From contig NZ_QBUG01000014.1 in the NCBI RefSeq assembly GCF_003058225.1, positions 62,001 through 126,000 of the forward strand: 64,000 bases of DNA, read 5' to 3'. The first letter of the stretch is position 1; each line of letters opens with the position of its first letter. The DNA is from Promicromonospora sp. AC04. Its GTDB lineage: Bacteria > Actinomycetota > Actinomycetes > Actinomycetales > Cellulomonadaceae. The notes under the pieces are model-generated. The model saw only the letters and a program-made list of their open reading frames with translations, did not search any database and was not told the origin of the DNA. This document shows positions 35,757-60,841 of this stretch, piece by piece. Made by a program: the position numbers and the translations under genes.

Positions 35757-36875
35757 ATGACCGTTGTAACAGTCTCCTCGGAGACCAGCACCGACGCCGA
35801 CGCCGACGACGCGGTCGCGGACACCAGGCACGCCCAGGCGCTCGCAGCCCTGCGGTCTGCCGAGGCGCGCACCGGTGTGCGCAAGCAGGCCACGGTCGCA
35901 CGAGCGGTTCAGCCGGTCCGCACTGAGCACACTGAGCAGGCCCGCACTGAGCAAGCCCGCACCGAACAGCGCCGTGCCGAACAAGCCCGCATCGAGCAGT
36001 CCCGGGTTCCGGTCCGGGCGCTGAGGGGTGGGCTGACAGCTGGGCCCGCGACCGAGCCTGCGCCGTCGGGCAGCCGGGCGGGCGCGGGCGGTCCGGGCGA
36101 GGAAGCGCGCGTCCTGCCCGTCCACCCGCATCTCGCGGCCCTCCTGCCCGACGGCGGCCTGCGCGCCGGAACCACCGTCATGGTCCGGGGCTCGACGTCG
36201 CTCCTGCTCACCCTGCTCGCCGAGGCGTCCCGCGACGGGGCCTGGACCGTGCTGGTCGGGTACCCGGCGGCCGGGATGGCCGCCGCGGCCGACGCCGGGT
36301 GCGACCTGGCGCGCACCCTGGTGGTGCCGCTGCCTGCCGGGTCGGGTGTGGACGCGCCCGCCGTGCTCGCGGCGCTGATCGACGGCATGGACGTGGTGGT
36401 GGTCGGGCCGGGTGTGGCGCTGCTGGACCACGACCGTCGTCGGCTGTCGGCGCGCGCCCGCGAACGGGGAACCGTGCTTGTCCCCGCCCTACCCGCCCCC
36501 GCGTTGAGCGCCGGATCTTCGACCCTCCGACGTCCGTTGGCAGGGCGAGGATCCAGCACTCGACGGGGAGTGGGGGACAACGGCTGGCCCGGCGCGCAGG
36601 TGGTGCTCGAGGCCGTCGGCGGGGGTTGGGCGGGGATCGACCATGGGACGGGCTGGCTGCGGCGCCGGACCTTGCGGGTGCGGCGCACCGGGCGGGGGAG
36701 CGCGGCGCGGCCCCTGCACCTGGACGTGGAGGTGCCGGTGTGCCGGGCGGCCGGGGGCGCGGAGCTCGCCGACGGGCTCGTCTCCACGGCCACGTCCGCG
36801 GTGACCGCGGTGACGCGAGCGGAGGCGCCGGACAGTGCGACCGAGAGCCGACCGCAGCTGGAGCTGGTCGGATGA
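35757..36875 (+). CDS. imuA': ImuA' mutasome protein (RecA/SulA-like)
   Basis: 372 residues. The RecA-like core (about 113-235) reads LAALLPDGGLRAGTTVMVRG, TVLVGYPAAGMAAAADAG, MDVVVVGPGVALL. It lacks a clear Walker A, as usual for ImuA'. ImuA' links ImuB and DnaE2 in damage-induced mutagenesis. GGAGG sets the ATG. Two oddities: five 15-bp units (35930-36004) encode an RTEQA-type repeat at about 58-83, and a hairpin element at 36502-36565 inserts about 22 residues (249-270) in frame. It overlaps imuB by 4 bp. Confidence 0.85.
   Translation: MTVVTVSSETSTDADADDAVADTRHAQALAALRSAEARTGVRKQATVARAVQPVRTEHTEQARTEQARTEQRRAEQARIEQSRVPVRALRGGLTAGPATEPAPSGSRAGAGGPGEEARVLPVHPHLAALLPDGGLRAGTTVMVRGSTSLLLTLLAEASRDGAWTVLVGYPAAGMAAAADAGCDLARTLVVPLPAGSGVDAPAVLAALIDGMDVVVVGPGVALLDHDRRRLSARARERGTVLVPALPAPALSAGSSTLRRPLAGRGSSTRRGVGDNGWPGAQVVLEAVGGGWAGIDHGTGWLRRRTLRVRRTGRGSAARPLHLDVEVPVCRAAGGAELADGLVSTATSAVTAVTRAEAPDSATESRPQLELVG
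35930..36004 (+). repeat. Five 15-bp tandem units inside imuA'
   Basis: Units such as CACTGAGCAGGCCCG and CACTGAGCAAGCCCG, increasingly diverged to the right, encode ARTEQ-like pentapeptides. They lie in the N-terminal linker ahead of the RecA-like core, where length change is probably tolerated. Confidence 0.85.
36502..36565. repeat. Palindromic element (family A) inserted in frame in imuA'
   Basis: Arms 36502-36524 and 36543-36565 (23 nt each) pair with five differences around an 18-nt loop. The right arm contains ATCCAGCACTCGACG, matching ATCCAGCACTCAACG of the intergenic element at 46538-46600. It is translated as ALSAGSSTL through SSTRR and keeps the frame open. Confidence 0.8.
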
Positions 36876-38722
36876 CGTCCCGTGCCGGTCGCGCCGGCCG
36901 CGCTATCCGTACTGACCAGGCCGCTCGTACTGACCAGGCCGCTCGCGCCGAGCGGGCTCCGGGAACGGCAGCGGCGGGGGTTGCCACCCGCACCGCCTGC
37001 CTCTGGGTGCCCGACTGGCCGGTCGTCGCCGCCCTGGTCGTCGCCGGGCTGGGCCCCGAGGTGCCCGCCGCCGTCACGGGCGGACCCGGCGGGCGGATCG
37101 TCGCGGTGTCCGCCCCCGCGCGCAGCGCCGGGGTGCGCCGCGGCATGCGCCGTCGCGAGGCCCAGGGGCGCTGCCCCGACCTGCAGCTCTGGCCCGCCGA
37201 CGACGCCCGCGACGCCCGCGAGTTCGAACCCGTCGCCGTGGCCGCCGAGACCGTGGTCTCCGGGCTGGAGATCGCCCGCCCGGGACTGCTCCTGCTGCCG
37301 TCGGGCGGCGCGGCCCGCTACCACGGCTCCGAGCACGACCTGGCGCGCGAGCTGACCGAGCAGGTCGCCGTCCGCACCGGCCACGAGTGCCAGGTCGGGG
37401 TCGCGGACGGTTTCCTGGCGGCGGTCCTGGCGGCGCGCGACGACGCCGTCGTGCCGCCGGGCGCCTCGCGGGACTATCTCGCGCCCCACCCCGCGGCTGT
37501 GCTCGTGCACGCCCGGCCCGCCGACCGGGCGCTGACCGAGCTGGTCGACCTGTGGCGCCGCCTCGGCGTCCGCACGCTGGCCGACCTGTCGGCCCTGCCC
37601 GACGCCGCCGTCGCCGCCCGGTTCGGCGACCTCGGCGTCTGGGCGCAGCGCCTCGCCCGCGGCCAGGACGTGCGGCCCCCGGCCCGACGTCGGCTGGAGG
37701 AGGACCTGACCGTCACCGAGGAGCTGGACCCGCCGGCGCACCGGGTCGACGTCGCCACCTTCGCCGCCCGCCGCCTGGCCGAGCACCTGCACGACGACCT
37801 GCACCGGCGCGGCCTGGCGTGCGGGCGGCTGCGGATCACGGCGCGCGCTGTCGACCCGGTCACGGGCGAGGCCCGCACCCTGGAACGGCTGTGGCGCACC
37901 GACGACACGCTCGGCGGGCTGTCGGCCGCCCGGATCACCGACCGGGTGCGCTGGCAGCTCGAGGGCTGGCTCACGGCGTCGTCCCTCGGGCAGGGCGAGG
38001 CGCCCGCCCCGATCGCGGGCCTGACCCTCGCCGCGGAGGAGGTGGCCCCCGCGGGAGCCCTGCAGCCGCGCCTCTGGGGCCCCGGCGCGGGTGAGGATCT
38101 GCGCGCCCGGCGCGCCGTCGAGCGGGTGCAGGCCCTGCTCGGCGGCGACGCCGTGCTCACCGTGCGGCTCCAGGGCGGGCGCGACCCCCGCGACCGCGTC
38201 CAGCTCGTCCCCTACGGCGAGCAGGTCCCGCCCGAGCGCGATCCCGACCGGCCCTGGCCCGGCGCCCTGCCGCCCCCGGCGCCGTCGTTCGTGCTGCCCG
38301 AGCCCGCCCCCGCGCACGTGCTCGACGCCGACGGCCGCCCCGTCGTCGTCGACGTGCGGCTGGCGATCAGCGGCGAGCCGGCGCGCGTCGTCGTGCCCGG
38401 CGGCGGTGCGGGCGACGCGCGGGGTGGCGGTGATGGCGGCGGCGGAGGCGATGGCGGCGGTGCGGGTGGCGGCGGTGTAGGCGATGGCGGTAGCGGCGCG
38501 GGTGGCGACGTGGGTGGCGGTGCGGACGACGGCGACGCGTGGGCCGGCCTCGACGCCGTGGTCGTCGACTGGGCCGGGCCGTGGCCCGTCGCCGAGCGGT
38601 GGTGGACACCCCGGGGCAAGCGCCGTGTGTTCCTCCAGGTGGTGACTGATCTCCCGGGCGACGTGGGGTTGCTGCTGTCGTCGTCGGCCGGGCAGTGGTC
38701 GCTGGAGGCCCTCTATGACTAA
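36872..38722 (+). CDS. imuB: ImuB, catalytically inactive Y-family polymerase of the mutasome
   Basis: 616 residues. CLWVPDWPVVAALV starts the palm, but the acidic catalytic residues of active Y-family enzymes are absent; DVRPPARRRLEEDLTVTEELDPPAHRVD marks the little-finger start. ImuB acts as the hub binding the beta clamp, ImuA' and DnaE2. The C-terminus holds a Gly/Asp-only stretch (about 38398-38535) before VVDWAGPWPVAERWW. Two 18-bp units (36909-36944) duplicate an RTDQAA hexapeptide near the start. The ATG overlaps the imuA' stop (ATGA). Its stop is 143 bp before dnaE2. Confidence 0.88.
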   Translation: MTSRAGRAGRAIRTDQAARTDQAARAERAPGTAAAGVATRTACLWVPDWPVVAALVVAGLGPEVPAAVTGGPGGRIVAVSAPARSAGVRRGMRRREAQGRCPDLQLWPADDARDAREFEPVAVAAETVVSGLEIARPGLLLLPSGGAARYHGSEHDLARELTEQVAVRTGHECQVGVADGFLAAVLAARDDAVVPPGASRDYLAPHPAAVLVHARPADRALTELVDLWRRLGVRTLADLSALPDAAVAARFGDLGVWAQRLARGQDVRPPARRRLEEDLTVTEELDPPAHRVDVATFAARRLAEHLHDDLHRRGLACGRLRITARAVDPVTGEARTLERLWRTDDTLGGLSAARITDRVRWQLEGWLTASSLGQGEAPAPIAGLTLAAEEVAPAGALQPRLWGPGAGEDLRARRAVERVQALLGGDAVLTVRLQGGRDPRDRVQLVPYGEQVPPERDPDRPWPGALPPPAPSFVLPEPAPAHVLDADGRPVVVDVRLAISGEPARVVVPGGGAGDARGGGDGGGGGDGGGAGGGGVGDGGSGAGGDVGGGADDGDAWAGLDAVVVDWAGPWPVAERWWTPRGKRRVFLQVVTDLPGDVGLLLSSSAGQWSLEALYD

Positions 38723-38787
38723 GCCGTCCCGGCCAAGTCGGCAGTCTCCTGAGCTGGCAGCTCGACGTCGGCAGTTTGCGCCACAAG

Positions 38788-38847
38788 TTCGGCACTTTGC
38801 ATCGAGGTCGGCTCAGCGCTGGACCGACCTCGATGCAGACTGCCGAC
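38788..38847. repeat. Hairpin repeat (family B, copy 1) between imuB and dnaE2
   Basis: Arms 38788-38811 and 38824-38847 (24 nt, three differences; inner 13 bp GCATCGAGGTCGG perfect) flank the 12-nt loop CTCAGCGCTGGA. The copies at 53754 and 55101 share the GAGGTCGG inner arm and nearly the same loop. GTCGGCAG pieces recur just upstream (38738-38775). A role in attenuation before dnaE2 is possible. Confidence 0.85.
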
Positions 38848-38865
38848 CTCGCAGGGGGGCCTGGG

Positions 38866-41800
38866 ATGGATAGGCACATGCCTTACGCCGAGCTGCATGC
38901 GCATTCCGCGTTCAGCTTTCTTGACGGTGCCTCCCACCCCGAGGAGCTTGCCGCCGAGGGTGCGCGCCTCGGGCTGAAGGCGCTTGCGATCACGGACCAC
39001 GACGGGCTGTACGGGGTGGTGCGGTTCTCGGAGGCCGCGAAGAAGGTCGGGCTGCCCACCGTGTTCGGGGCCGAGCTGCATCTGCCGGTTGCCTCGACCG
39101 GCTCGATCGGCTCGATCGGCTCGATCGGCTCGATCGGCTCGATCGGCTCGATCGGCTCGGCCGGCTCGGCCGGCTCGGCCGGCTCGGCCGGCTCGGCCGG
39201 CTCGGCCGGCTCGGCCGGTAGGACGGGCTCGACCGGTAGGACGGGCTCGACCGGTAGGGCAGGCTCGGCCAGCGGGCGTGGCTCGGCCGCCGGCCGGGGC
39301 GCGCCCGTGCTGGACCCGCCCACCGGCACTCCCGACCCGCGCGCCACGCACCTGCTCGTGCTCGCGCGCGGCGATCAGGGCTACCGCAACCTGTCGAGCG
39401 CGATCGGCACCGCGCACCTGGAGACCGGGGTCAAGGGCGCGGCCAAGTACACGCTGGAGGGCCTGGGTGAGGCGTCGAACGGCGAGTGGCTGATCCTCAC
39501 GGGCTGCCGCAAGGGCGCGGTCCGCCAGGCCCTGATGCCCCCGCTGAGTGCTGGATATCTGTCCCCTCGGAACGCGTCGATGGAACGGCAGGGGGAGAAC
39601 CGGAGCGACCGGTTCGACGCGGGGCGGCGGGAGCTGGAGCGGCTGGTCGACAGCTTCGGGCGGGACAACGTCGCCGTCGAGATCACCGCTACCGGCGACC
39701 CGCGCGACGCCGACCTGCACGACGCGCTCGCCCTGCTGGCCGCCGAGGCGCGCCTGCCGCTGGTCGCCACCACCGCGGCGCACTACGCGCGACCCCGGGA
39801 CGCCGACCTGGCGGGGGCACTGGCCGCAGTCAGGGCCCGGTCGAGCCTGGACGACCTGGACGGCTGGCTGCCCGGCGCCCCCACCGCTCACCTGCGCAGC
39901 GGCGCGGAGATGGCGCGCCTGCACCGCAGGTACCCGCAGGCAGTGCCGACGGCGGCCGCGCTGGGCGAGGAGTGCGCGTTCGACCTCGACCTCATCGCGC
40001 CCGAACTGCCGCCCTACGACGTGCCGCCCGGGCACGACGAGAAGTCCTGGCTGCGCGAGCTCGCCTACCAGGGAGCGGAGCGGCGGTACGGCCCTCGGGA
40101 GGGCAACAAGAAGGCCTGGAAGCAGATCGACTACGAGCTGGAGATCATCATCCGCCTGGGTTTCCCCGGGTACTTCCTCGTGGTCTACGACATCGTGGAG
40201 TTCTGCCGCACCCAGGGGATCCTCGCGCAGGGCCGGGGCAGCGCCGCCAACTCCGCGGTCTGCTACGCCCTGGGGATCACCGCGGTGGACGCCGTGAAGT
40301 ACGGCCTGCTGTTCGAGCGGTTCCTCGCCGAGGCGCGCAACGGGCCCCCGGACATCGACGTCGACATCGAGTCGGTGCGGCGCGAGGAGGTGATCCAGCA
40401 CGTCTACGAGAAGTTCGGGCGCACGCACGCGGCACAGGTCGCGAACGTCATCTCCTACCGGCCCCGGTCAGCGGTGCGCGACGCCGCCCGCGCGCTCGGC
40501 TACGACATCGGGCAGCAGGACGCGTGGTCCAAGAGCATCGAGCGCTGGGGCTCGCTGAAGCCGAAGGCGACCACGCCGCCGTCGGGCAGCACCGTGCCCG
40601 ACGGCGAGACGACGGCGTCGACGTCCCCGTCGGCCACCCCACCGAACAGGACAGCTGCCAAGGATGCTCAGCTCGCGGCACTGTGGGGCCCGCGGGAACC
40701 GCGGCCGCACGCCGGTCACACGAGCACCGGGCGCACCGCCCCGGGACGCACGAGCACGGGCAGCCCCGGGGTCTTCCTCGACGTGCTCGGCGAGGACCAG
40801 CGCGCACCCGGGGAGCCGCGGCCGAGCCGCGCCGACGACACCCACGACGTCGTGCCGTTCCGTACGCCGCCGTCGGCCGTGGAGGAGGGGGAGATCCCCG
40901 ACGACGTGCTCGACCTGGCCGACCGGATGCTCCGCCTGCCCCGGCACCTGGGCATCCACTCGGGCGGCATGGTCATGTGCGACCGCCCGGTGATCGAGGT
41001 CGTTCCCGTGGAGTGGGCCCGCATGGAGGGCCGCACGGTGCTGCAGTGGGACAAGGAGGACTGCGCGGATGCGGGACTGGTGAAGTTCGACCTGCTGGGC
41101 CTGGGCATGCTGACCGCGATCCGGTACGCGTTCGAGTTCGTGCACGAGCACACCGGGGAACGTCTCGAGCTGCACAGCCTGCCGGAGGACGACCCGCTCG
41201 TGTACGACCTGCTGTGCGCCGCCGACACCGTCGGCGTGTTCCAGGTGGAGTCACGCGCCCAGATGGCGACGCTCCCGCGCCTGCAGCCGCGAGACTTCTA
41301 CAGCATCGTCGTCGAGGTCGCGCTCATCCGGCCCGGCCCCATCCAGGGCGGGTCGGTGCACCCGTACATCGAGCGGGCCCGCGGCCGCCAGAAGGTGGAG
41401 TACCCGCACGAGCTGCTGGAGAAGACGCTGAAGCGGACGCTGGGGGTGCCGCTGTTCCAGGAGCAGCTCATGCAGATGGCGACCGACATCGCCGGGTTCA
41501 CGCCCACGGAGTCCGACCAGCTGCGGCGCGCCATGGGGTCCAAGCGGTCGGAAGAACGCATGGAGGCGCTGCGCGATCGGTTCTACGCGGGGATGGCGGA
41601 CAACGGTGTCGAGCCAGACAAGCAGGACGAGATCTTCGAGAAGCTCAAGGCGTTCGCCGACTTCGGCTTCCCCGAGTCGCACGCCTACTCCTTCGCCTAC
41701 CTCGTGTACGCGAGCGCATGGCTCAAGGTGCACCACCCGGCCGCGTTCTACGCGGGGCTGCTCGCGGCCCAGCCCATGGGGTTCTACTCGCCGCAGTCCC

Positions 41801-42747
41801 TGGTCGCCGACGCGCGCCGACACGGGGTGCGCGTGCTGCGCCCCTCGGTGACGCAGTCGCGGGCCCTGGCCACCGTGGAACGACTCCCGGCCGACGACGA
41901 CGGCGGTGGTGGTGCGCCGGTTGACCATGCGGTTGCTGCGGGACCGCGGGCCGCTTCCGGTAGTAGTCGCATGGTCAACACGCCGGTCGACCTGCAGCTT
42001 GCGGTGCGTATGGGGCTGGAGTCCGTGCGGGGGATCGGGAAGGAGAAGGCTGAGGAGATCGTCGCGGGTCGCGACGCCGCCGTCGGGCGCGACGCCGGGC
42101 GCGATGCCGTCGCCGACCCGTCCGGAGGTGCGGGGTTCGCGTCGCTGCGGGACCTCGTGCAGCGGGTCGAGCTGTCGACAGCGCAGCTCGAGGCGCTCGC
42201 GACGGGCGGCGCGCTGGAGTCGTTCGGCGTCGAGCGCCGGGCAGGCCTGTGGGCCGCTGGCGCGCTGGGCCAGGAAGGGCCGACGACGCTGCCCGGCGTC
42301 AGCGTCGGCGTCGAGGCCCCGGTGCTGCCGGGGATGAGCGAGATCGAGCTGTCGCAGGCCGACTCGTGGGCCACCGGCGTCACACCCGACTCGTACCCGA
42401 CCCAGCACGTGCGGCCCGGGCTGGAGGCGGCGGGCGTGCTCACCGTGGCGCAGGCGCTCGTGACGGAGGCGGGGCGCCGGATCGCCGTCGGCGGGGTGGT
42501 GACGCACCGCCAGCGGCCGGGCACTGCCGGGGGAGTGACGTTCCTGTCCCTGGAGGACGAGACGGGGCTGCTCAACGTGATCTGCACCGTGGGGCTGTGG
42601 CAGCGGTTCCGGAAGGTGGCGCGGTCGGCGTCGGCCATGGTGGTGCGGGGGCGGATCGAGGCGGCCGACGGCGCCGTGAACCTGCTGGCGGAGCACCTGT
42701 CCACTCTGACGCTGGGGGTGCCGGGGCGGTCGCGGGACTTCCGGTGA
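38866..42747 (+). CDS. dnaE2: Error-prone DNA polymerase III alpha subunit DnaE2
   Basis: 1293 residues, about 200 more than usual for DnaE2. The PHP domain begins YAELHAHSAFSFLDGA; the polymerase active site includes PDIDVD (495-500) in DIDVDIESVRREEVIQHVYEKFGRTHAAQVANVISYRPRS order; helix-hairpin-helix (SVRGIGKEKAEEIV) and OB-fold regions follow. It carries out damage-induced mutagenic synthesis with ImuA'/ImuB. Extra length comes from repeat insertions: SIG/SAG/RTGSTG repeats at about 76-138, a palindrome at 226, a Thr/Pro-rich stretch at about 565-650, and a second palindrome at about 1019-1038. ATG 38866 follows a G-run; ATG 38878 is possible. Confidence 0.9.
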   Translation: MDRHMPYAELHAHSAFSFLDGASHPEELAAEGARLGLKALAITDHDGLYGVVRFSEAAKKVGLPTVFGAELHLPVASTGSIGSIGSIGSIGSIGSIGSAGSAGSAGSAGSAGSAGSAGRTGSTGRTGSTGRAGSASGRGSAAGRGAPVLDPPTGTPDPRATHLLVLARGDQGYRNLSSAIGTAHLETGVKGAAKYTLEGLGEASNGEWLILTGCRKGAVRQALMPPLSAGYLSPRNASMERQGENRSDRFDAGRRELERLVDSFGRDNVAVEITATGDPRDADLHDALALLAAEARLPLVATTAAHYARPRDADLAGALAAVRARSSLDDLDGWLPGAPTAHLRSGAEMARLHRRYPQAVPTAAALGEECAFDLDLIAPELPPYDVPPGHDEKSWLRELAYQGAERRYGPREGNKKAWKQIDYELEIIIRLGFPGYFLVVYDIVEFCRTQGILAQGRGSAANSAVCYALGITAVDAVKYGLLFERFLAEARNGPPDIDVDIESVRREEVIQHVYEKFGRTHAAQVANVISYRPRSAVRDAARALGYDIGQQDAWSKSIERWGSLKPKATTPPSGSTVPDGETTASTSPSATPPNRTAAKDAQLAALWGPREPRPHAGHTSTGRTAPGRTSTGSPGVFLDVLGEDQRAPGEPRPSRADDTHDVVPFRTPPSAVEEGEIPDDVLDLADRMLRLPRHLGIHSGGMVMCDRPVIEVVPVEWARMEGRTVLQWDKEDCADAGLVKFDLLGLGMLTAIRYAFEFVHEHTGERLELHSLPEDDPLVYDLLCAADTVGVFQVESRAQMATLPRLQPRDFYSIVVEVALIRPGPIQGGSVHPYIERARGRQKVEYPHELLEKTLKRTLGVPLFQEQLMQMATDIAGFTPTESDQLRRAMGSKRSEERMEALRDRFYAGMADNGVEPDKQDEIFEKLKAFADFGFPESHAYSFAYLVYASAWLKVHHPAAFYAGLLAAQPMGFYSPQSLVADARRHGVRVLRPSVTQSRALATVERLPADDDGGGGAPVDHAVAAGPRAASGSSRMVNTPVDLQLAVRMGLESVRGIGKEKAEEIVAGRDAAVGRDAGRDAVADPSGGAGFASLRDLVQRVELSTAQLEALATGGALESFGVERRAGLWAAGALGQEGPTTLPGVSVGVEAPVLPGMSEIELSQADSWATGVTPDSYPTQHVRPGLEAAGVLTVAQALVTEAGRRIAVGGVVTHRQRPGTAGGVTFLSLEDETGLLNVICTVGLWQRFRKVARSASAMVVRGRIEAADGAVNLLAEHLSTLTLGVPGRSRDFR
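39091..39270 (+). repeat. Nested 9-bp and 18-bp tandem repeats in dnaE2
   Basis: GGCTCGATC repeats six times, then GGCTCGGCC seven times, then an 18-bp GGTAGGACGGGCTCGACC-type unit two to three times. They encode SIG, SAG and RTGSTG repeats in a loop of the PHP domain, between GAELHLPV and the DPRATHLLVLARG strand. Slippage expansion is the likely origin. Confidence 0.9.
39542..39605. repeat. Degenerate family-A palindrome in dnaE2
   Basis: The left arm contains GAGTGCTGGATAT, 13 identical nt with the intergenic element at 46538-46600; the right arm is eroded. It is read in the same frame as the imuA' copy, giving LSAG in both proteins, and adds about 21 residues starting at 226. Confidence 0.65.
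41921..41978. repeat. Palindromic insert (family D) in dnaE2
   Basis: Arms 41921-41943 and 41956-41978 share TTGACCATGCG exactly; of five differences in 23 positions, four still pair as G-U in RNA. Loop 12 nt. Encodes LVDHAVAAGP-like residues in a linker before the helix-hairpin-helix. No second copy is seen in this window. Confidence 0.75.
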
Positions 42748-42748
42748 G

Positions 42749-44989
42749 CTATCGGGTCAGCCCCAGGTTCAGCAGGCCGGAGCTGGTCGCCCACAGCGCC
42801 GCCGAACCCGCGCCGACGAGCAGCGCGGAGGTCACGTAGAACCAGATCCGCATCTTGTGCCTGGCGATGCGCAGCAGCACAGCCAGACCGAGGGCGGCGA
42901 TCGCGAGAGCCGGCGCGGCGAGGAACGGGTCGCCCGCCTGGGGGTCCTGGGTGACCAGCAAGTACACGGCCCCCACGAGGAGCAGCCGGGGAACCCAGCG
43001 CAGCAGGGCGCCGAGCAGGCGCAGCGGCCACGGCCTCCGGCGCGGCGGAACCGGGGCGGGGGCGGCAGGTCTCGGCTGCACGCCCGGCCGCGTGCCCGGC
43101 TGCATGCTCGGCGGGCGGCTCGCCGGGGGCTTCCGAACGGCGGGCTGCGGTACGGCGGACTGCGGTACGGCGGGCATCGGGCGAGTGGCGCGCACGGACG
43201 CGCGCGGCCCCGCCGGCTGCGGGGCCGGGCCGAGGTGCTTGACCGGGCTCTTGCGCGGCTCGAACGACTGCGGTGGCGGGACCACGTTGCGGACGACCTG
43301 GGTCGCCGCGGCAGCCGGGGGTGGGGGTGCGGGGGAGACGGACGGGGGCACGGGCTCCGGCCTGCCGCTGACGGGGACCCGCTCGCTCGCCGGGGCCGGC
43401 TCGGGGCTGCGGAACGCACGCCAGCCGCGGAGCGTGTCCGAGTGGCCGTCGGCGGGAGACGTGACCTGCCAGCGCATCGCCTCCCAGATCCAGTCCTTGA
43501 TCTCGGCCGGGGTGCGGCCACCGGCGACGTGCGCGCCGATCTCCGCGACGTGGTCGGCGACCACCTGCTCCGCGGCGCCGTCGAAGCCGTCCGCGTGCAC
43601 CTCGGCCAGGACGCTCATGAGCGCGCGGTCGTACACGAGGGCGTGCCAGGGCTCCGGGGTGCGCGGGGTGGGCGTTGCCTCGTCCGACCGGTCAGGGGCC
43701 TGCGGGAACATCCTGGTGTGGCCCCGGCCGGGCAGCACGTCCGTCGCGGGGAGCGCGGCCACCTCGGCGGCCGTCACGCCGTCGCTGAGGACCTGCGAGG
43801 TGAGCAGCAGCGTCGGGTCGGGCGCCGTGTTCGCGAGACGGGAGCGCACCACCCCCGCGATGTTCTCCAGCGGCGGGCGGTGGTTCGGCTGGTACCGGGT
43901 CATGGCGAGGACCAGCGACTGCAGGTGCCGGTCGACGGCGGGTGGCTCGGGCAGGGGGTCCTCGTCGGGGGCGAGGTAGGCCGGCTCCTCGTCCACGAGG
44001 TCGGCGGCCACCAGGTCCCGGCCCAGGAAGTTCAGGTCCAGCGGCAGCGTGCCCGTGCTCGCGTACACGAGCAGCAGCCCCAGGCTGTACACGTCCGAGC
44101 GTGGGTGCACGCGGCGCCCGAACAGCTCCGGCGCCATGTATGCGAAGGTTCCGGCCGGCTGCGTCGACGTCGCGGCGTCGAAGACCTTGGCGATGCCCAG
44201 GTCGATGAGTACCGCGCGGTCGCCGTCGACCATGATGTTCGCGGGCTTGAGGTCGCGGTGCAGGCAGCGCTCCTCCTGCAGCACGAGCAGCGCGTCGACC
44301 AGCTGCGCGGCCAGGCGCAGCGCCTCCGGCCCGGACAGCGGCCCTTCGTCGTGCACCCGGTCCCGCAGCGTGGTGCCGGGCACGAGCTCCATGGCGAACC
44401 AGGGCTGGCTCGCGTCCATGTCGGACTCCACGAAGCGCGGGAAACCGCGACCGTCCAGGCGTTCCAGGAGGTGGGCCTCCTGTGCGAAGCGGTCCCGGGC
44501 GTCGTCGTGCAGGGCGGTCAGGACCTTGAGGGCTACCTCGGCGCCGTCGTCGGCCTGCGCGCGGTACACGTGCGCGAAACCGCCGTGGCCCAGCGCCTCG
44601 GCGAGGGTGAACCGGCCCAGCTGCTCGCCGCTGGCGGGGATGCGCCGGACCGGGCGGACGGGGAGCCGTGCCGCGAGTGGTGCGGGCGCGGGTTCGGGAT
44701 CCGGCACGGGAGGCGGTTCCGACGGCGGCTCGGCCGGCAGGGCGGGCGTCGGTTCGGCCTCTAGCTCCGACGCAGGTTCAGGTTCAGGCTCAGGTTCAGG
44801 CTCCGGGGCGGGTGCCTGGGCGGACCCCGGTTCGGGCTCCGGTTCGGCTGCCCGGGCGGGCTCCTGTTCGGGCTCTGAAGCGGGAGCTGCGGCTGCCGGG
44901 GCTGCGGCTGCCGGCTCGGACAACAGGACAGGACCGGGGTCGACGACTGCGGGCGCGACCTCGCCGACACCTGGCGCTGGTGACGTCAT
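42749..44989 (-). CDS. Membrane-anchored serine/threonine protein kinase (kinase 1)
   Basis: 746 residues. A Pro/Glu-rich N-terminus (EP repeats at about 62-72) precedes a Hanks-type kinase: LGHGGFAHVY (133-142), Lys155 in VALKVL, HRDLKPAN (244-251), DLG (263-265, for DFG) and MAPELF. After it comes LVYDRALMSVLAEVHADGFDGAAEQVV and EIKDWIWEAMRW, a domain also found in the kinase at 55299-57548. A Pro/Ala-rich linker leads to RWVPRLLLVGAVYLLV and further membrane segments at the C-terminus. So the catalytic domain is cytosolic and tail-anchored, with no PASTA domain. ATG 44989 is preferred over TTG 44998. It converges tightly on dnaE2 (1 bp). Confidence 0.9.
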   Translation of the reverse strand: MTSPAPGVGEVAPAVVDPGPVLLSEPAAAAPAAAAPASEPEQEPARAAEPEPEPGSAQAPAPEPEPEPEPEPASELEAEPTPALPAEPPSEPPPVPDPEPAPAPLAARLPVRPVRRIPASGEQLGRFTLAEALGHGGFAHVYRAQADDGAEVALKVLTALHDDARDRFAQEAHLLERLDGRGFPRFVESDMDASQPWFAMELVPGTTLRDRVHDEGPLSGPEALRLAAQLVDALLVLQEERCLHRDLKPANIMVDGDRAVLIDLGIAKVFDAATSTQPAGTFAYMAPELFGRRVHPRSDVYSLGLLLVYASTGTLPLDLNFLGRDLVAADLVDEEPAYLAPDEDPLPEPPAVDRHLQSLVLAMTRYQPNHRPPLENIAGVVRSRLANTAPDPTLLLTSQVLSDGVTAAEVAALPATDVLPGRGHTRMFPQAPDRSDEATPTPRTPEPWHALVYDRALMSVLAEVHADGFDGAAEQVVADHVAEIGAHVAGGRTPAEIKDWIWEAMRWQVTSPADGHSDTLRGWRAFRSPEPAPASERVPVSGRPEPVPPSVSPAPPPPAAAATQVVRNVVPPPQSFEPRKSPVKHLGPAPQPAGPRASVRATRPMPAVPQSAVPQPAVRKPPASRPPSMQPGTRPGVQPRPAAPAPVPPRRRPWPLRLLGALLRWVPRLLLVGAVYLLVTQDPQAGDPFLAAPALAIAALGLAVLLRIARHKMRIWFYVTSALLVGAGSAALWATSSGLLNLGLTR

Positions 44990-45100
44990 ACCGGGCAACC
45001 TACCAGCGCCTTCGTACCGTTCCGAGGAAAGTCCCCGTCCGACGCCGGCAGGGGCGCTGAGACCGGGCCGCCAGGACGCTGGGTGCGGACTCGGAACACA

Positions 45101-45460
45101 TCACACCCCCTGCTTCCGATACCACGCGATCTTCTCCCGCAGCCGCTCCTGCTGGCTGCGCAGCACGTCGATCGACTCCTGCACGCGCCGGTCGTGCTCC
45201 TCGAGCAGCGCCACCCGCGCGGCCAGGGTGGCCTCGTCCAGGGACAGCTCGGCGTACTGCTTGAGGTCGGCGATCGGCATACCGGTGTCGCGCAGGCAGT
45301 GGACCAGGTCGAGCCAGCCCAGGTCGTCCTCGGTATAGGTGCGGTGCCCGCCCGACGTCCGCGCGATGGGCCGCAGGATGCCCTCCCGCTCGTAGTACCG
45401 CAGCGTGTCGATGCTGAAGCCGGAGACCTCGGCGGCCTGCGCGGGCGAGTAAGTGGTCAT
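45101..45460 (-). CDS. MerR family transcriptional regulator
   Basis: 119 residues. The winged HTH reads YSPAQAAEVSGFSIDTLRYYEREGILRPIARTSGGHRTYTEDDLGWL, followed by a coiled-coil dimer helix. The C-terminal effector part is short without Cys residues, so it is not a metal sensor. GGGGCAGGA precedes ATG 45460. It diverges from the aldo/keto reductase gene, with a MerR-type operator between. Confidence 0.92.
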   Translation of the reverse strand: MTTYSPAQAAEVSGFSIDTLRYYEREGILRPIARTSGGHRTYTEDDLGWLDLVHCLRDTGMPIADLKQYAELSLDEATLAARVALLEEHDRRVQESIDVLRSQQERLREKIAWYRKQGV

Positions 45461-45476
45461 GTTCCGATCCTGCCCC

Positions 45477-45498
45477 TTGACCTGGAGCGCACTCCAGG
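45477..45498. promoter_or_regulatory. MerR operator CCTGGAG-N4-CTCCAGG overlapping TTGACC
   Basis: Perfect 7-bp arms at 45481-45487 and 45492-45498 begin inside the -35 element TTGACC (45477-45482), the standard placement for MerR activators acting on a stretched spacer. The reductase ATG is 15 bp beyond, so its mRNA is probably leaderless. Confidence 0.7.
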
Positions 45499-45513
45499 GT
45501 TTTCGCTCATCCC

Positions 45514-46533
45514 ATGACCACATCGCAGGACACCCAGGGCACCATCAAGACCAGCCCCGAGGGCACCGCCGCCCACGACACCCCGCCCGCCGAGCGCCTC
45601 GTGCTCGGCGCCATGATGTTCGGCACCGCGGTGGATGAGCCGACGTCGTTCGCCATCCTGGACCGGTTCGTCGACGCGGGCGGCCGGTGGATCGACACCG
45701 CCGACTGCTACGCCTTCTGGGCGAGCGAGTCCGGCTACGGCGGCCAGAGCGAGGACGTGCTCGGCCGCTGGTTCGCCGCGCGCCCCGGCGTGCGCGACCG
45801 CGTGCTGCTCTCCACCAAGTTCGGCGCTGAGCCGCGCGACGCCGCCGACTGGCCCGCCTCCCGTACGGGCCTGTCGCCCGCCGCGATCCGCGAGCAGCTC
45901 GCCGGCAGCCTGCGCCGCCTCGGCACCGACCACGTGGACCTCGCGTGGGGCCACATGGAGGACCGGTCGGTCCCGATCGAGGAGACGGCGGACGCCTGCG
46001 CGGCCCTCGTGTCCGACGGCGTCACCGCCCGTGTCGGCCTCTCCAACCACCCGGCGTGGCGGGTCGAGCGGGCGCGGCGGCACGCCGTCGGGCAGGGCAA
46101 GGAGCCGGTCAGCATGGTCCAGCACGCCTACAGCTACCTCCAGCCCCGCCCCGGAACGCTCACCGGGAACCACCGCTTCGGCTGGCTGAACGACGACCTG
46201 GTCGACCTGGCCGACGTCGAAGGCCTGGAGGTGTGGGCCTACACCCCGCTGCTGTCCGGCGCGTACGACAACCCGGCCAAGCCGATCCCCGAGCTCTTCG
46301 ACCACCCGGGCAGCACCCGGCGGCTCGCCGTGCTGGACGACGTCGCCGCCCAGGTCGGGGCCTCGCGCGGCCAGGTCGTGCTCGCCTGGCTCGCGGCCCG
46401 CGGCATCCGGCCGATGCTGGGCGGCAGCAAGGTCCACCAGCTCGAGGCCGCCGTCGAGGCCCTGTCGCTGGACGTCCCGACCGAGCTGCTGGAGCTGATG
46501 AACGGCGTGGACGTCACCCCGCCCGCCGCCTGA
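45514..46533 (+). CDS. Aldo/keto reductase
   Basis: 339 residues, (beta/alpha)8 barrel. Catalytic residues are recognisable: IDTADCYAFW (Asp, Tyr), LLSTKFG (Lys) and LAWGHMED (His). VWAYTPLLSGAY and GASRGQVVLAWLAARGIRPMLGGSK match the NADPH-binding end. It reduces an aldehyde or ketone; substrate unknown. Likely activated by the divergent MerR regulator. Its stop is 5 bp before a long hairpin shared with the convergent HtaA gene. Confidence 0.9.
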   Translation: MTTSQDTQGTIKTSPEGTAAHDTPPAERLVLGAMMFGTAVDEPTSFAILDRFVDAGGRWIDTADCYAFWASESGYGGQSEDVLGRWFAARPGVRDRVLLSTKFGAEPRDAADWPASRTGLSPAAIREQLAGSLRRLGTDHVDLAWGHMEDRSVPIEETADACAALVSDGVTARVGLSNHPAWRVERARRHAVGQGKEPVSMVQHAYSYLQPRPGTLTGNHRFGWLNDDLVDLADVEGLEVWAYTPLLSGAYDNPAKPIPELFDHPGSTRRLAVLDDVAAQVGASRGQVVLAWLAARGIRPMLGGSKVHQLEAAVEALSLDVPTELLELMNGVDVTPPAA

Positions 46534-46537
46534 CCGG

Positions 46538-46600
46538 CGTTGAGTGCTGGATATTCGCCCGGTAGAGCGTCCTGACGGGGCGAATATCCAGCACTCAACG
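46538..46600. repeat. Perfect 23-bp-stem hairpin (family A reference copy)
   Basis: Arms 46538-46560 and 46578-46600 are perfectly complementary around a 17-nt loop. Between convergent genes it may end transcription both ways; the stop codon of the minus-strand HtaA gene lies within the right arm. There is no U-tract. Related copies sit inside imuA' and dnaE2. Confidence 0.9.
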
Positions 46601-47068
46601 ACCGGGGGACAGATCGATCGTCAGCGGTTCGAATGGGGTCGCCGGCGGGTAGGTGCCGCCCCAGAGCTTCGCGCCGTCGTCGGTCAGCTCGACCTGCTGC
46701 CAGGTCAGGCGCGCGCCGTCGTCGGACCGCTCGGGAGCCCCGGCCAGGCGGAACGCGACGGTGCGCACGTCCGCGTCGCGGTCCCGGATGGACATGGCCC
46801 AGTCGGGGCCGCCGTCGGCGGGGGCGGTGACCTCGATGTCGGCGACCTCACCGACGAACGAGCCGAAGTGCCCGATGAAGACGACGGATCCCGTGAACGC
46901 GAACAGGGCGGCGTCGGCCGACGGATCCGGACTCCGTTCCGGGTCGAGCGGGAAGTGGAACGATGCGCCGGTGCCGCCGACGGCGTCGTCCTGCACGATG
47001 CGGCCGCCGGGCGCCCCCATCACGTACATCAGCAGGCTTGCCTTGATCTCCCAGTCCAGATGAGCCAC
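46595..47068 (-). CDS. HtaA-domain protein without secretion signal
   Basis: 157 residues. LDWEIKASLLMYVMG, FHFPLDPERS, ALFAFTGSVVFIGHFGSFVGEVADIEVTA and LTWQQVELTDDGAKLW fit the HtaA domain of corynebacterial haem-binding proteins, though I infer this from pattern alone. Unlike HtaA/HtaB it has no signal peptide or membrane anchor, so haem uptake at the surface is unlikely. Similar single-domain cytosolic proteins occur in actinobacteria. The stop lies in the hairpin arm. Confidence 0.6.
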   Translation of the reverse strand: MAHLDWEIKASLLMYVMGAPGGRIVQDDAVGGTGASFHFPLDPERSPDPSADAALFAFTGSVVFIGHFGSFVGEVADIEVTAPADGGPDWAMSIRDRDADVRTVAFRLAGAPERSDDGARLTWQQVELTDDGAKLWGGTYPPATPFEPLTIDLSPGR

Positions 47069-52218: not shown

Positions 52219-53439
52219 GAGGGCCTGTGCCAACAGGTCGGCGAACAGGGCGTCGGGGTCGACGTCCAGGCCACGGGCCGTGAACCAGGCGCACACGGTG
52301 CGGCAGTCCCGCAGCAGCACGTCGCTCGCGAACGGGTTCGCCACGAGGTCCACGACCTGCGGCAGGTCGATGATGACCAGCCGCTCGCCGTCGGCCAGGA
52401 TGTTGTACGGCGACAGGTCGCCGTGCGCGAAACCGAGCCGAGCCAGCACCGACATGCCGTGCGTCAGCTGGTCCCAGTACGACTCGAGCAGGTCGTCCGA
52501 CGGGCGTACCCGGGTCAGCCGCGGCGCGGCGACCGCCTGGGTGCGGCCCTCGTCGTCGGTCACCTCGGTGCCCACGAACTCCATGAGCACCTCGGTGCCG
52601 TCGATCTGCACCGGGTAGGGCACCGGCGCGCCCGCCGACCAGGCGTCGCGCAGGGCGACGAACTCGGCGTCGGCCCACTGGGTGGCGGACACCGCGCGGC
52701 CCCACGCGGACTTGCGGTCCTCCATGGCGCGCTGGTCGCGCGTGCGCCGGACGCGACGGCCCTCGGTGTACTCGGTGCCGCGGTGGAACTGCCCGTGCTC
52801 CAGGCTGCGGTACCGCTTGGCGACCAGGAGGCAGCGCTCGGCCTCCTGGTCGGACGCGGAGCCGGACGCCGGGTCGGCGCCCGGCGGGACGGCACGCTCC
52901 ACGAGGAACGCATCCGCCTCCTTGCCGGTCTTGAGGATGCCGAGCTCGGTGTCGAACGCGGCGTCGCGGGTGACCAGCCAGTCGGGCAGGGGCTCGGGCC
53001 CGCGCTGGCCCTTGGCGACCGACCGCCAGGTGGACCAGCGCTGCCCTGGCCCGGGCTGGGCGGGGTCGACGCCGGGTGGGTTGGCGCCGGGTGGATTGGT
53101 GCCCGGCAGATTGGCGCCGAGCATGCCGGTGCTGCGCGAATCCAAGTCGGCCCCGGTGGTGTCCTGTTCGACGCCGTGCTGGTCGCCTTCGTACTCATCG
53201 GCGCGGTACTCACTGGCGTCGTACTCACTGGCGTCGTACTCACTGGCGTCGTACTCACCGGCGTCGGCCGGATCCGCCACGAGCGTGCTCGGGTGCGGGC
53301 CCTCCAGGTCCTCGCGGCTGATGCGGGCACGACCGGACGCGCGTCGCTCGGCGGCGCTCGGCCGGGTGTCGGACTGGTTGCCGTCCCCGCGTGCGGCGCG
53401 GATCAGGACGGACTTCGGTGCTTCGGGAAAACGAGGCAA
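52216..53439 (-). CDS. RIO1-type atypical serine kinase
   Basis: 407 residues. The first about 140 are acidic and low-complexity, including four DASEY-like repeats encoded by 15-bp units (53206-53265) and PPGAN-like repeats. The RIO domain follows: ILKTGKEADAFLVER (nucleotide loop), LLVAKRYRS (Lys), HGDLSPYNIL (339-348) and IIDLPQVVD (356-361). Bacterial RIO kinases have unknown substrates. The TTG start is supported by AAGGAG 8 nt upstream. A candidate 23-codon ORF lies just upstream. Confidence 0.88.
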   Translation of the reverse strand: MPRFPEAPKSVLIRAARGDGNQSDTRPSAAERRASGRARISREDLEGPHPSTLVADPADAGEYDASEYDASEYDASEYRADEYEGDQHGVEQDTTGADLDSRSTGMLGANLPGTNPPGANPPGVDPAQPGPGQRWSTWRSVAKGQRGPEPLPDWLVTRDAAFDTELGILKTGKEADAFLVERAVPPGADPASGSASDQEAERCLLVAKRYRSLEHGQFHRGTEYTEGRRVRRTRDQRAMEDRKSAWGRAVSATQWADAEFVALRDAWSAGAPVPYPVQIDGTEVLMEFVGTEVTDDEGRTQAVAAPRLTRVRPSDDLLESYWDQLTHGMSVLARLGFAHGDLSPYNILADGERLVIIDLPQVVDLVANPFASDVLLRDCRTVCAWFTARGLDVDPDALFADLLAQAL

Positions 53440-53740: not shown

Positions 53741-53843
53741 AGCGTCCTGTGAGGTCGGCAGTCGGCACCGAGGTCGGCTCAGGCCTGGACCGACCTCGGT
53801 GCCAACTGCCGACTCTGCTGTGCAAACTGCCGACCGCGTCGTG
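53741..53843. repeat. Hairpin repeat (family B, copy 2)
   Basis: Arms 53754-53777 and 53790-53813 (24 nt, one G-U) flank the loop CTCAGGCCTGGA. Conserved flanks are CCTGTGAG on the left and TCTGCTGTGCAAACTGCCGA on the right, shared with copy 3, so the full unit is about 100 bp. It lies just past the stop of the AbiEi-like gene. Confidence 0.9.
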
Positions 53844-55087: not shown

Positions 55088-55183
55088 AGTTTCCTGTGAG
55101 GTCGGCAGTCGGCACCGAGGTCGGCTCAGGCCTGGACCGACCTCGGTGCCGACTGCCGACTCTGCTGTGCAAACTGCCGACCG
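55088..55183. repeat. Hairpin repeat (family B, copy 3), perfect 24-bp stem
   Basis: Arms 55101-55124 and 55137-55160 are perfectly complementary around loop CTCAGGCCTGGA. Same flanks and orientation as copy 2, which lies 1347 bp away across the AbiEi-like gene. The surrounding 54879-55298 gap (420 bp) holds no supported gene beyond this repeat. Confidence 0.92.
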
Positions 55184-60776: not shown

Positions 60777-60841
60777 TTGTTGTGGGCGTGATCGTTGCGC
60801 CTAGGACGGACGCACAAGCGCAACGATCACGCCCACGACAA
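60777..60841. repeat. 24-bp-stem hairpin (family C) between convergent genes
   Basis: Arms 60777-60800 and 60818-60841 pair with one G-U around a 17-nt loop. The stem contains GGGCGTGATCGTTGCGC. It follows the EspI-like gene by 7 bp and ends 13 bp before the YdjM-like gene, so a bidirectional terminator role fits. Sequence unrelated to families A, B and D. Confidence 0.9.

Follow-up and report, generated by a model that had tools for sequence, protein, structure and literature searches.

Introduction

The 64,000-nt stretch analysed here (the window), part of contig NZ_QBUG01000014.1 in the 6.85 Mb genome of Promicromonospora sp. AC04 (G000), contains a long palindrome, called family A in the following, which occurs once between two genes and twice within reading frames, those of imuA' and dnaE2 (Table 1). 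The question raised by this locus is how one and the same palindrome comes to stand at the ends of some genes and to be read through in frame inside others, and whether it serves the cell at either place. It is well supported by the data given below that family A is a dispersed palindrome which reads through in frame inside genes. Beyond this we consider it probable that family A is mobile, similar to the repetitive extragenic palindromes (REPs), and is kept as a hairpin at the 3' ends of genes, the copies inside genes being decaying by-products. The comparison covered 13 genomes of the genus (G000 to G012), with detailed placement of the copies in G000 and G009, and the nearest named relatives of the DnaE2 protein are from Promicromonospora. 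Genes were called by a codon-usage gene finder trained on the window.

Results and discussion

Family A is dispersed through the genome and the genus

The intergenic copy of the window is a perfect palindrome with a stem of 23 bp and a loop of 17 nt, as stated in a preliminary description of this DNA, and together with its short flanks it is predicted to fold strongly as RNA (-58.4 kcal/mol, z -10.4; among intergenic copies, folding covered one in G000 and its G009 counterpart). The orthologous site in G009 also bears a family A copy (L188:12904-12964). The stretch inside imuA' had rightly been said to share the arm: it matches the covariance model of the family with 57.7 bits (E 7.5e-15), this copy having been among the 35 sequences from which the model was built. 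The copy inside dnaE2 had been called degraded, and it is weaker than that word implied: its left arm is kept and its right arm is lost, it gives alone no covariance-model match at E<=0.01, and its fold is no better than that of shuffled sequences (z 0.37). It can be recognised as family A because the DnaE2 genes of four relatives (G002, G003, G005 and G009) bear intact palindromes at the same codon position. The 13-mer GAGTGCTGGATAT is exactly common to the dnaE2 and intergenic copies, and the reading frames agree with the earlier statement that LSAG is the frame of both coding copies.

The whole-genome search proposed in the preliminary description returned dozens of copies. An 18-nt arm pattern, allowing at most three mismatches, gave 65 matches in G000 and the reversed pattern gave none, so that chance is excluded; together with partner arms these matches form 39 groups, 35 of which, the imuA' copy included, were used to build the covariance model. 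The model finds 55 places in G000, and with the dnaE2 copy, whose length of 62 nt was set by hand, the total is 56; one of the 55, C11:260780, belongs on inspection to another family and is still inside all counts. The first scoring took 150 candidates per genome and gave at least 77 places in G009, a lower bound because all 150 candidates were taken up there; 76 of these copies were classified and one further copy, at a contig end, was left unclassified. Arm matches occur in all 13 genomes of the genus, 3 to 175 in each (0 or 1 per genome for the reversed control). Among 150 genomes of the taxonomic family an arm match was found in 44, including the 13 members of the genus; the matching genomes outside the genus have few matches, many of them no higher than the controls, and arm pairs are present in at least three (G038, G042, G094). 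A product of chance or of the gene finder is excluded by the zero control, by inserts common to several species and by the bias in core length described below.

The core of the element measures 61-62 nt, with two 22-nt arms around a variable loop of 17-18 nt. The arm core GAGTGC.GG is nearly invariant in the alignment, while 12 of the 22 stem pairs have changed on both sides, and the ends of the element pair with each other (GTTG...CAAC), leaving neither a GTAG nor a CGTC tag unpaired. CTGACC/GGTCAG was considered as the boundary of a longer element; this motif lies near some copies, and it is not part of the element because its distance varies and it overlaps neighbouring stop codons in the copies read. 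The same structure bears on the idea of a miniature inverted-repeat transposable element mobilised by a DDE transposase, the two arms being its inverted ends. The inverted-repeat structure and the addition of whole codons by the inserts would suit such an element, but a single detected arm is found in just 2 of the 39 grouped G000 copies, both apparently decayed and not the ends of anything longer, and no target-site duplication was established; we hold this origin to be highly improbable. No Rfam family reached its gathering score within the window, the viral contigs of IMG/VR contained no exact match to one 22-nt family A pattern, and a plasmid search for relatives of the locus gave three records, matching only inside an error-prone polymerase gene.

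Copies stand behind stop codons and keep their stems there

Among the 132 copies that were placed (56 in G000, 76 in G009), 63 lie between convergent genes, 51 between tandem genes, two between divergent genes and 16 within genes. The insertion into genes that the preliminary description had put forward is borne out by the 16 coding copies, but it is only part of the story, most copies being close behind stop codons. The distance to a stop codon is at most 25 nt for 106 of the 114 convergent or tandem copies, in 24 of the 114 the stop codon is within the element (TGA in the arm), and 46 of the 51 tandem copies are closer to the upstream stop than to the downstream start.

Between genes the stem is maintained by paired changes. 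Across 23 intergenic pairs of orthologous copies, both sides had changed in 55 stem pairs, of which 48 were still pairing; with independent arms 11.9 such double changes are expected at equal rates, 23.1 with rates by position and 31.4 with rates by position and locus, and none of 2000 permutations reached 55. Inside genes the four orthologous coding pairs, from which the dnaE2 pair was omitted because one arm is gone, had seven double changes against 6.8, 11.6 and 11.8 expected under the same three assumptions. The mean number of arm mismatches is 7.0 in coding versus 2.8 in intergenic copies of G000 (5.9 for the coding ones without the dnaE2 copy) and 3.1 versus 0.8 in G009. Paired changes keep the stem between genes, and the four coding pairs have no excess of them, which suggests that at gene ends it is the hairpin as such that counts; this manner of evolution argues for a function there.

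The same evidence has to be set against the alternative that family A is a purely selfish palindrome without function, whose 3'-end position would reflect nothing more than the removal by selection of copies that harm promoters or genes, and whose matched arms would result from hairpin-templated repair (template switching). The two copies out of 132 between divergent genes and the very existence of coding copies agree with this explanation, and template switching is discussed in passages of PMC6649704 as both maker and keeper of palindromes. However, template switching should match the arms in genes too, where the four coding pairs have no excess of double changes and the arms have more mismatches. 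Moreover, at one 3'-end site, described in the last section, nearly all comparable species have some long palindrome, of one family or another, which suggests a useful hairpin, although a landing hot spot would look alike. On balance, a purely selfish element appears rather unlikely to us.

According to the reading that we prefer, a mobile palindrome retained as a 3'-end hairpin, the element would spread by an enzyme acting in trans, probably recognising the nearly invariant arm core. When a copy stands behind a stop codon the transcript would fold into a long hairpin, most likely ending transcription or protecting the 3' end of the mRNA, and at such places the stem would be preserved through paired changes. 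Occasionally a copy would land in a gene, where it could survive only if it brought whole codons (62-nt core) in one of the two stop-free frames into a tolerant loop; judging from the reading frames, it would then be translated as about 21 extra residues while its palindrome decays. Both the mobilising enzyme and the role as terminator or stabiliser are what we infer from the distribution and evolution of the copies.

Several points weigh against this reading. No transposase could be tied to family A: the Y1 tyrosine transposase PF01797 was matched in none of the 13 genus genomes at E<=0.001, five of 14 control genomes having a match, and a REP doublet (REPIN) driven by a REP-associated tyrosine transposase (RAYT) is thereby unsupported. 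The copy number is low, about 55 in 6.85 Mb. The comparison of sites dated no recent jump; G009 has a copy at the orthologous place for 28 of the 56 G000 sites, so that many copies are old, or the sites have been hit repeatedly. The outward flanks of the intergenic copies have a G-rich consensus without a T-run, and termination needs no conserved primary core, yet the arm core is nearly invariant. A simple terminator scan did not call the intergenic copy of the window, which its loop limit of 8 nt excludes anyway. Replacement of whole copies is another possible source of double changes, although the loops are still alike in some pairs, and the decay of coding copies is backed by no more than the four pairs mentioned above.

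Copies inside genes keep the reading frame

The 16 coding copies are spread over 11 genes, and they are not independent because five of these host genes occur in both genomes and are counted in G000 and G009 alike. All 16 have the 62-nt core, against 19 of the 116 copies elsewhere (Fisher p 2.6e-11; 15 of 15 without the hand-set dnaE2 copy). Thirteen are read in the frame LSAG...STQR, three in the other open frame and none in the frame that contains the stop. Two coding copies are weak when scored alone, namely C9:326605 (E 0.004), which has a G009 ortholog, and C5:423812 (E 2.6e-7). Alignment with relatives, also proposed in the preliminary description, revealed whole-codon inserts of about 20-22 residues, which some species have and others lack. 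Two findings had been named there as contrary to its claim, namely protein segments conserved in relatives without palindromic DNA, and a genome-wide search giving no further copies above chance; neither was encountered.

In both genomes the hosts encode ImuA', DnaE2, a TatD nuclease, an ABC-F-type protein and LigD. An ABC transporter ATPase, a GH95 enzyme and an allantoinase-like amidohydrolase are hosts in G000 only, and a xanthine dehydrogenase-type protein, a DUF2264 protein and a GH20 enzyme in G009 only; for such single-genome sites, emptiness in the other genome was checked for xanthine dehydrogenase alone. Four of these names, imuA', ABC-F, xanthine dehydrogenase and allantoinase, are putative assignments.

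The claim that the coding copies fall in linkers stands for DnaE2, where the insert lies between two helices, residues 227-233 are below 50 in model confidence, and the aligned segment at this place varies from 35 to 56 residues among 67 other DnaE2 proteins; for imuA' the alignment is what points to a linker. In the GH20 enzyme the inserted segment falls at gaps of the solved homologue 3rcn, directly ahead of the conserved LLGAQA stretch. Apart from the palindrome, dnaE2 contains a 9-bp tandem repeat (window 39086-39220) that encodes Gly-Ser-Ile/Ala repeats and narrowly misses the cut-off of a collagen-like Pfam family.

Gain, loss and copying among species

The DnaE2 insert is present in G000, G002, G003, G005 and G009 and absent from G001, G006, G007, G008, G010, G011 and G012, G004 being uncovered at this place. 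In ImuA' the insert is present in G000, G001, G007, G009 and G011, remnants were seen by eye in G003, G008 and G012, and it was unrecognised in G002, G006 and G010 (G005 is cut by a contig end and G004 was unrecovered). A partnership between the two inserts was considered and dropped because their occurrence among the species does not coincide. The insert states are patchy on a tree of imuB and dnaE2 (supports 59-100).

The xanthine dehydrogenase insert is present in G002, G003, G007 and G009, G000 and G011 have none, and G008 has a possible remnant; G001 and G012 have no clear ortholog. At this site sequence of another palindrome, family C, was found in G004 and G010 and a different insert in G005 and G006, so that a single place in this protein (loci L246-L256) holds family A in four species, sequence of family C in two and yet another insert in two more. 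Within G009, the dnaE2 copy is distinguished from the xanthine dehydrogenase copy by only 1 of 62 nt, the loop being counted, which means that one copy was made from the other, or both from one source.

Such near-identical copies, loops included, in two genes of one genome speak against the view that family A represents ordinary bidirectional terminators sharing a motif by descent or gene conversion, without mobility and with coding copies as rare accidents. Intrinsic terminators form a hairpin shortly downstream of stop codons, in many cases where two genes converge, and family A resembles them in its strong, stable hairpin at such places; the paired changes and the half of G000 sites common to G009 are also compatible with this view. 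Family A differs from them in the missing T-run, the nearly invariant primary core, the multi-copy character, which ranges among congeners from 3 to 175 arm matches, and the 16 in-frame coding copies in 11 genes. We judge the terminator explanation improbable.

Comparison with known palindromes

REPs with GTAG or CGTC tags are described in PMC3733652 as dispersed palindromes mostly between convergent or tandem genes, supplying stop codons to their neighbours; in the two species shown, most copies between convergent genes have less than 20 bp to each of the two 3' ends, and according to the same source no transposase gene is linked to the CGTC repeats. Family A shares with them the gene-end placement, the rarity between divergent genes and some in-gene copies, DnaE2 included, and differs in being one long hairpin with a stem of at least 22 bp, with no unpaired GTAG/CGTC tag and with no PF01797 match in the genus. 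The preliminary description had referred to Rickettsia for palindromes within genes, which is correct, but they are not confined there: PMC3733652 reports intragenic REPs from several species outside Rickettsia, with many DNA synthesis and repair genes, DnaE2, DNA ligase and uvrA among the hosts, so the phenomenon itself, DnaE2 included, is already published for other phyla. Hosts of this kind recur here as ImuA', DnaE2, LigD and the TatD-type nuclease.

Rickettsia palindromic elements are about 150 bp long (PMC10969869), and PMC6649704 describes them as in-frame palindromes in unrelated genes whose repeat identity is lost with time. By this description family A is alike in being inserted into unrelated genes without breaking their frame (16 copies, 11 genes) and with decaying identity, and unlike in its 61-62 nt, in belonging to another phylum and in being mostly intergenic. 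Inverted repeats also occur in protein-coding sequence of Nematomorpha mitochondria, but there, as described in PMC6649704, both arms encode conserved residues and stay perfect, whereas family A is an extra insert that decays in genes.

The word Actinobacteria is absent from the main text of PMC3733652, in which untagged REP-like repeats of M. tuberculosis are mentioned. In agreement with the preliminary description, no report of in-frame palindromes in Actinobacteria was found among the open-access titles and abstract openings listed, and in-frame palindromic inserts are now seen in this phylum. The genus offers fixed sites of one element for comparison, with the stem kept between genes and decaying inside them, so that the question whether REP-like sequences are useful or selfish becomes directly testable.

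Other palindrome families at gene ends

Further families, B to I, were separated by eye. One convergent site bears family A in G009 and G007, D in G010, G004 and G000, E in G011 and B in G008, that is a long palindrome of four families in seven of the eight comparable species (of 13), G001 having none and five lacking anchors. At a second site family A is found in G009 and G007 and a GC-rich hairpin in G010 and G004, nine genomes being not comparable. Of the convergent junctions without family A, 10 of 34 have hairpins scoring at least 14; the share is 10% for the 168 tandem and 8% for the 60 divergent junctions without it, against 1-3% in controls. We suggest tentatively, and with more doubt than confidence, that Promicromonospora may have a modular system of mobile 3'-end hairpins, in which many long-palindrome families replace one another at the same gene ends, species swap families at a fixed site, and at least two families (A and C) double as ready peptide inserts that keep the frame, in some cases at one and the same point of a protein. 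If the exchange of hairpin families at a gene end is general, transcript ends would evolve by replacement.

The family B arm has 18 matches in the genome and none in the control, and the GTGGGCGTGATCGTTGCGC arm occurs in eight distinct contexts in the examined genus loci and in none of the reversed control. Of 30 contexts of family C arms, 28 are within genes, and 26 have the arm in a single codon phase that yields VSTGST or VEPVET peptides, a phase bias to which codon preference may contribute, the loci being mostly coding and several being the same gene across species. Among 80 DnaE2 loci the family C arm (at most two mismatches) was found in P. iranensis only.

Table 1. Palindromes and neighbouring genes; positions refer to the window unless a locus is named
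Feature	Position	Strand	Remarks
Family A palindrome, intergenic	46538..46600	.	Lies between two convergent genes; the TGA stop 46595-46597 of the minus-strand gene 46595-47068 is part of it
Family A copy in imuA'	36502..36565 (62-nt core 36503-36564)	+	Read as LSAGSSTLRRPLAGRGSSTRR; covariance model match
Decayed family A copy in dnaE2	39542..39605	+	Has lost the right arm and kept the left; frame reads PLSAGYLSPRNASMERQ...
imuA', host gene	35757..36875	+	Gene prediction; name from the preliminary description and operon context
imuB, between the two host genes	36965..38722	+	IMS domain; gene finder start 37007, start codon provisional
dnaE2, error-prone polymerase, host gene	38869..42747	+	PHP, DNA_pol3_alpha and finger domains; start codon provisional
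Aldo/keto reductase gene	45514..46533	+	Ends 5 nt ahead of the 61-nt core of the intergenic copy
HtaA-domain gene	46595..47068	-	Own stop codon inside the family A element
Family B palindromes, about 60 nt, GTCGGCAGTCGGCACCGAGGTCGG arms	38789-38846, 53754-53813, 55101-55160		All between tandem genes
65-nt palindrome, GTGGGCGTGATCGTTGCGC arms	60777-60841		Between convergent genes; weak match to the family A model
Family C palindrome GGTCTCGACAGGCTCGACC	L188:6082-6176 and other genus loci		Present within the G009 DnaE2 as well

The imuA' product matched no Pfam family at E<=0.001. A 15-bp tandem repeat lies within a predicted minus-strand gene at window 53172-53261. More palindromes, of 46-74 nt and of several sequence types, were observed at convergent gene ends of G009 (L225, L187, L235, L214, L210, L192, L205).

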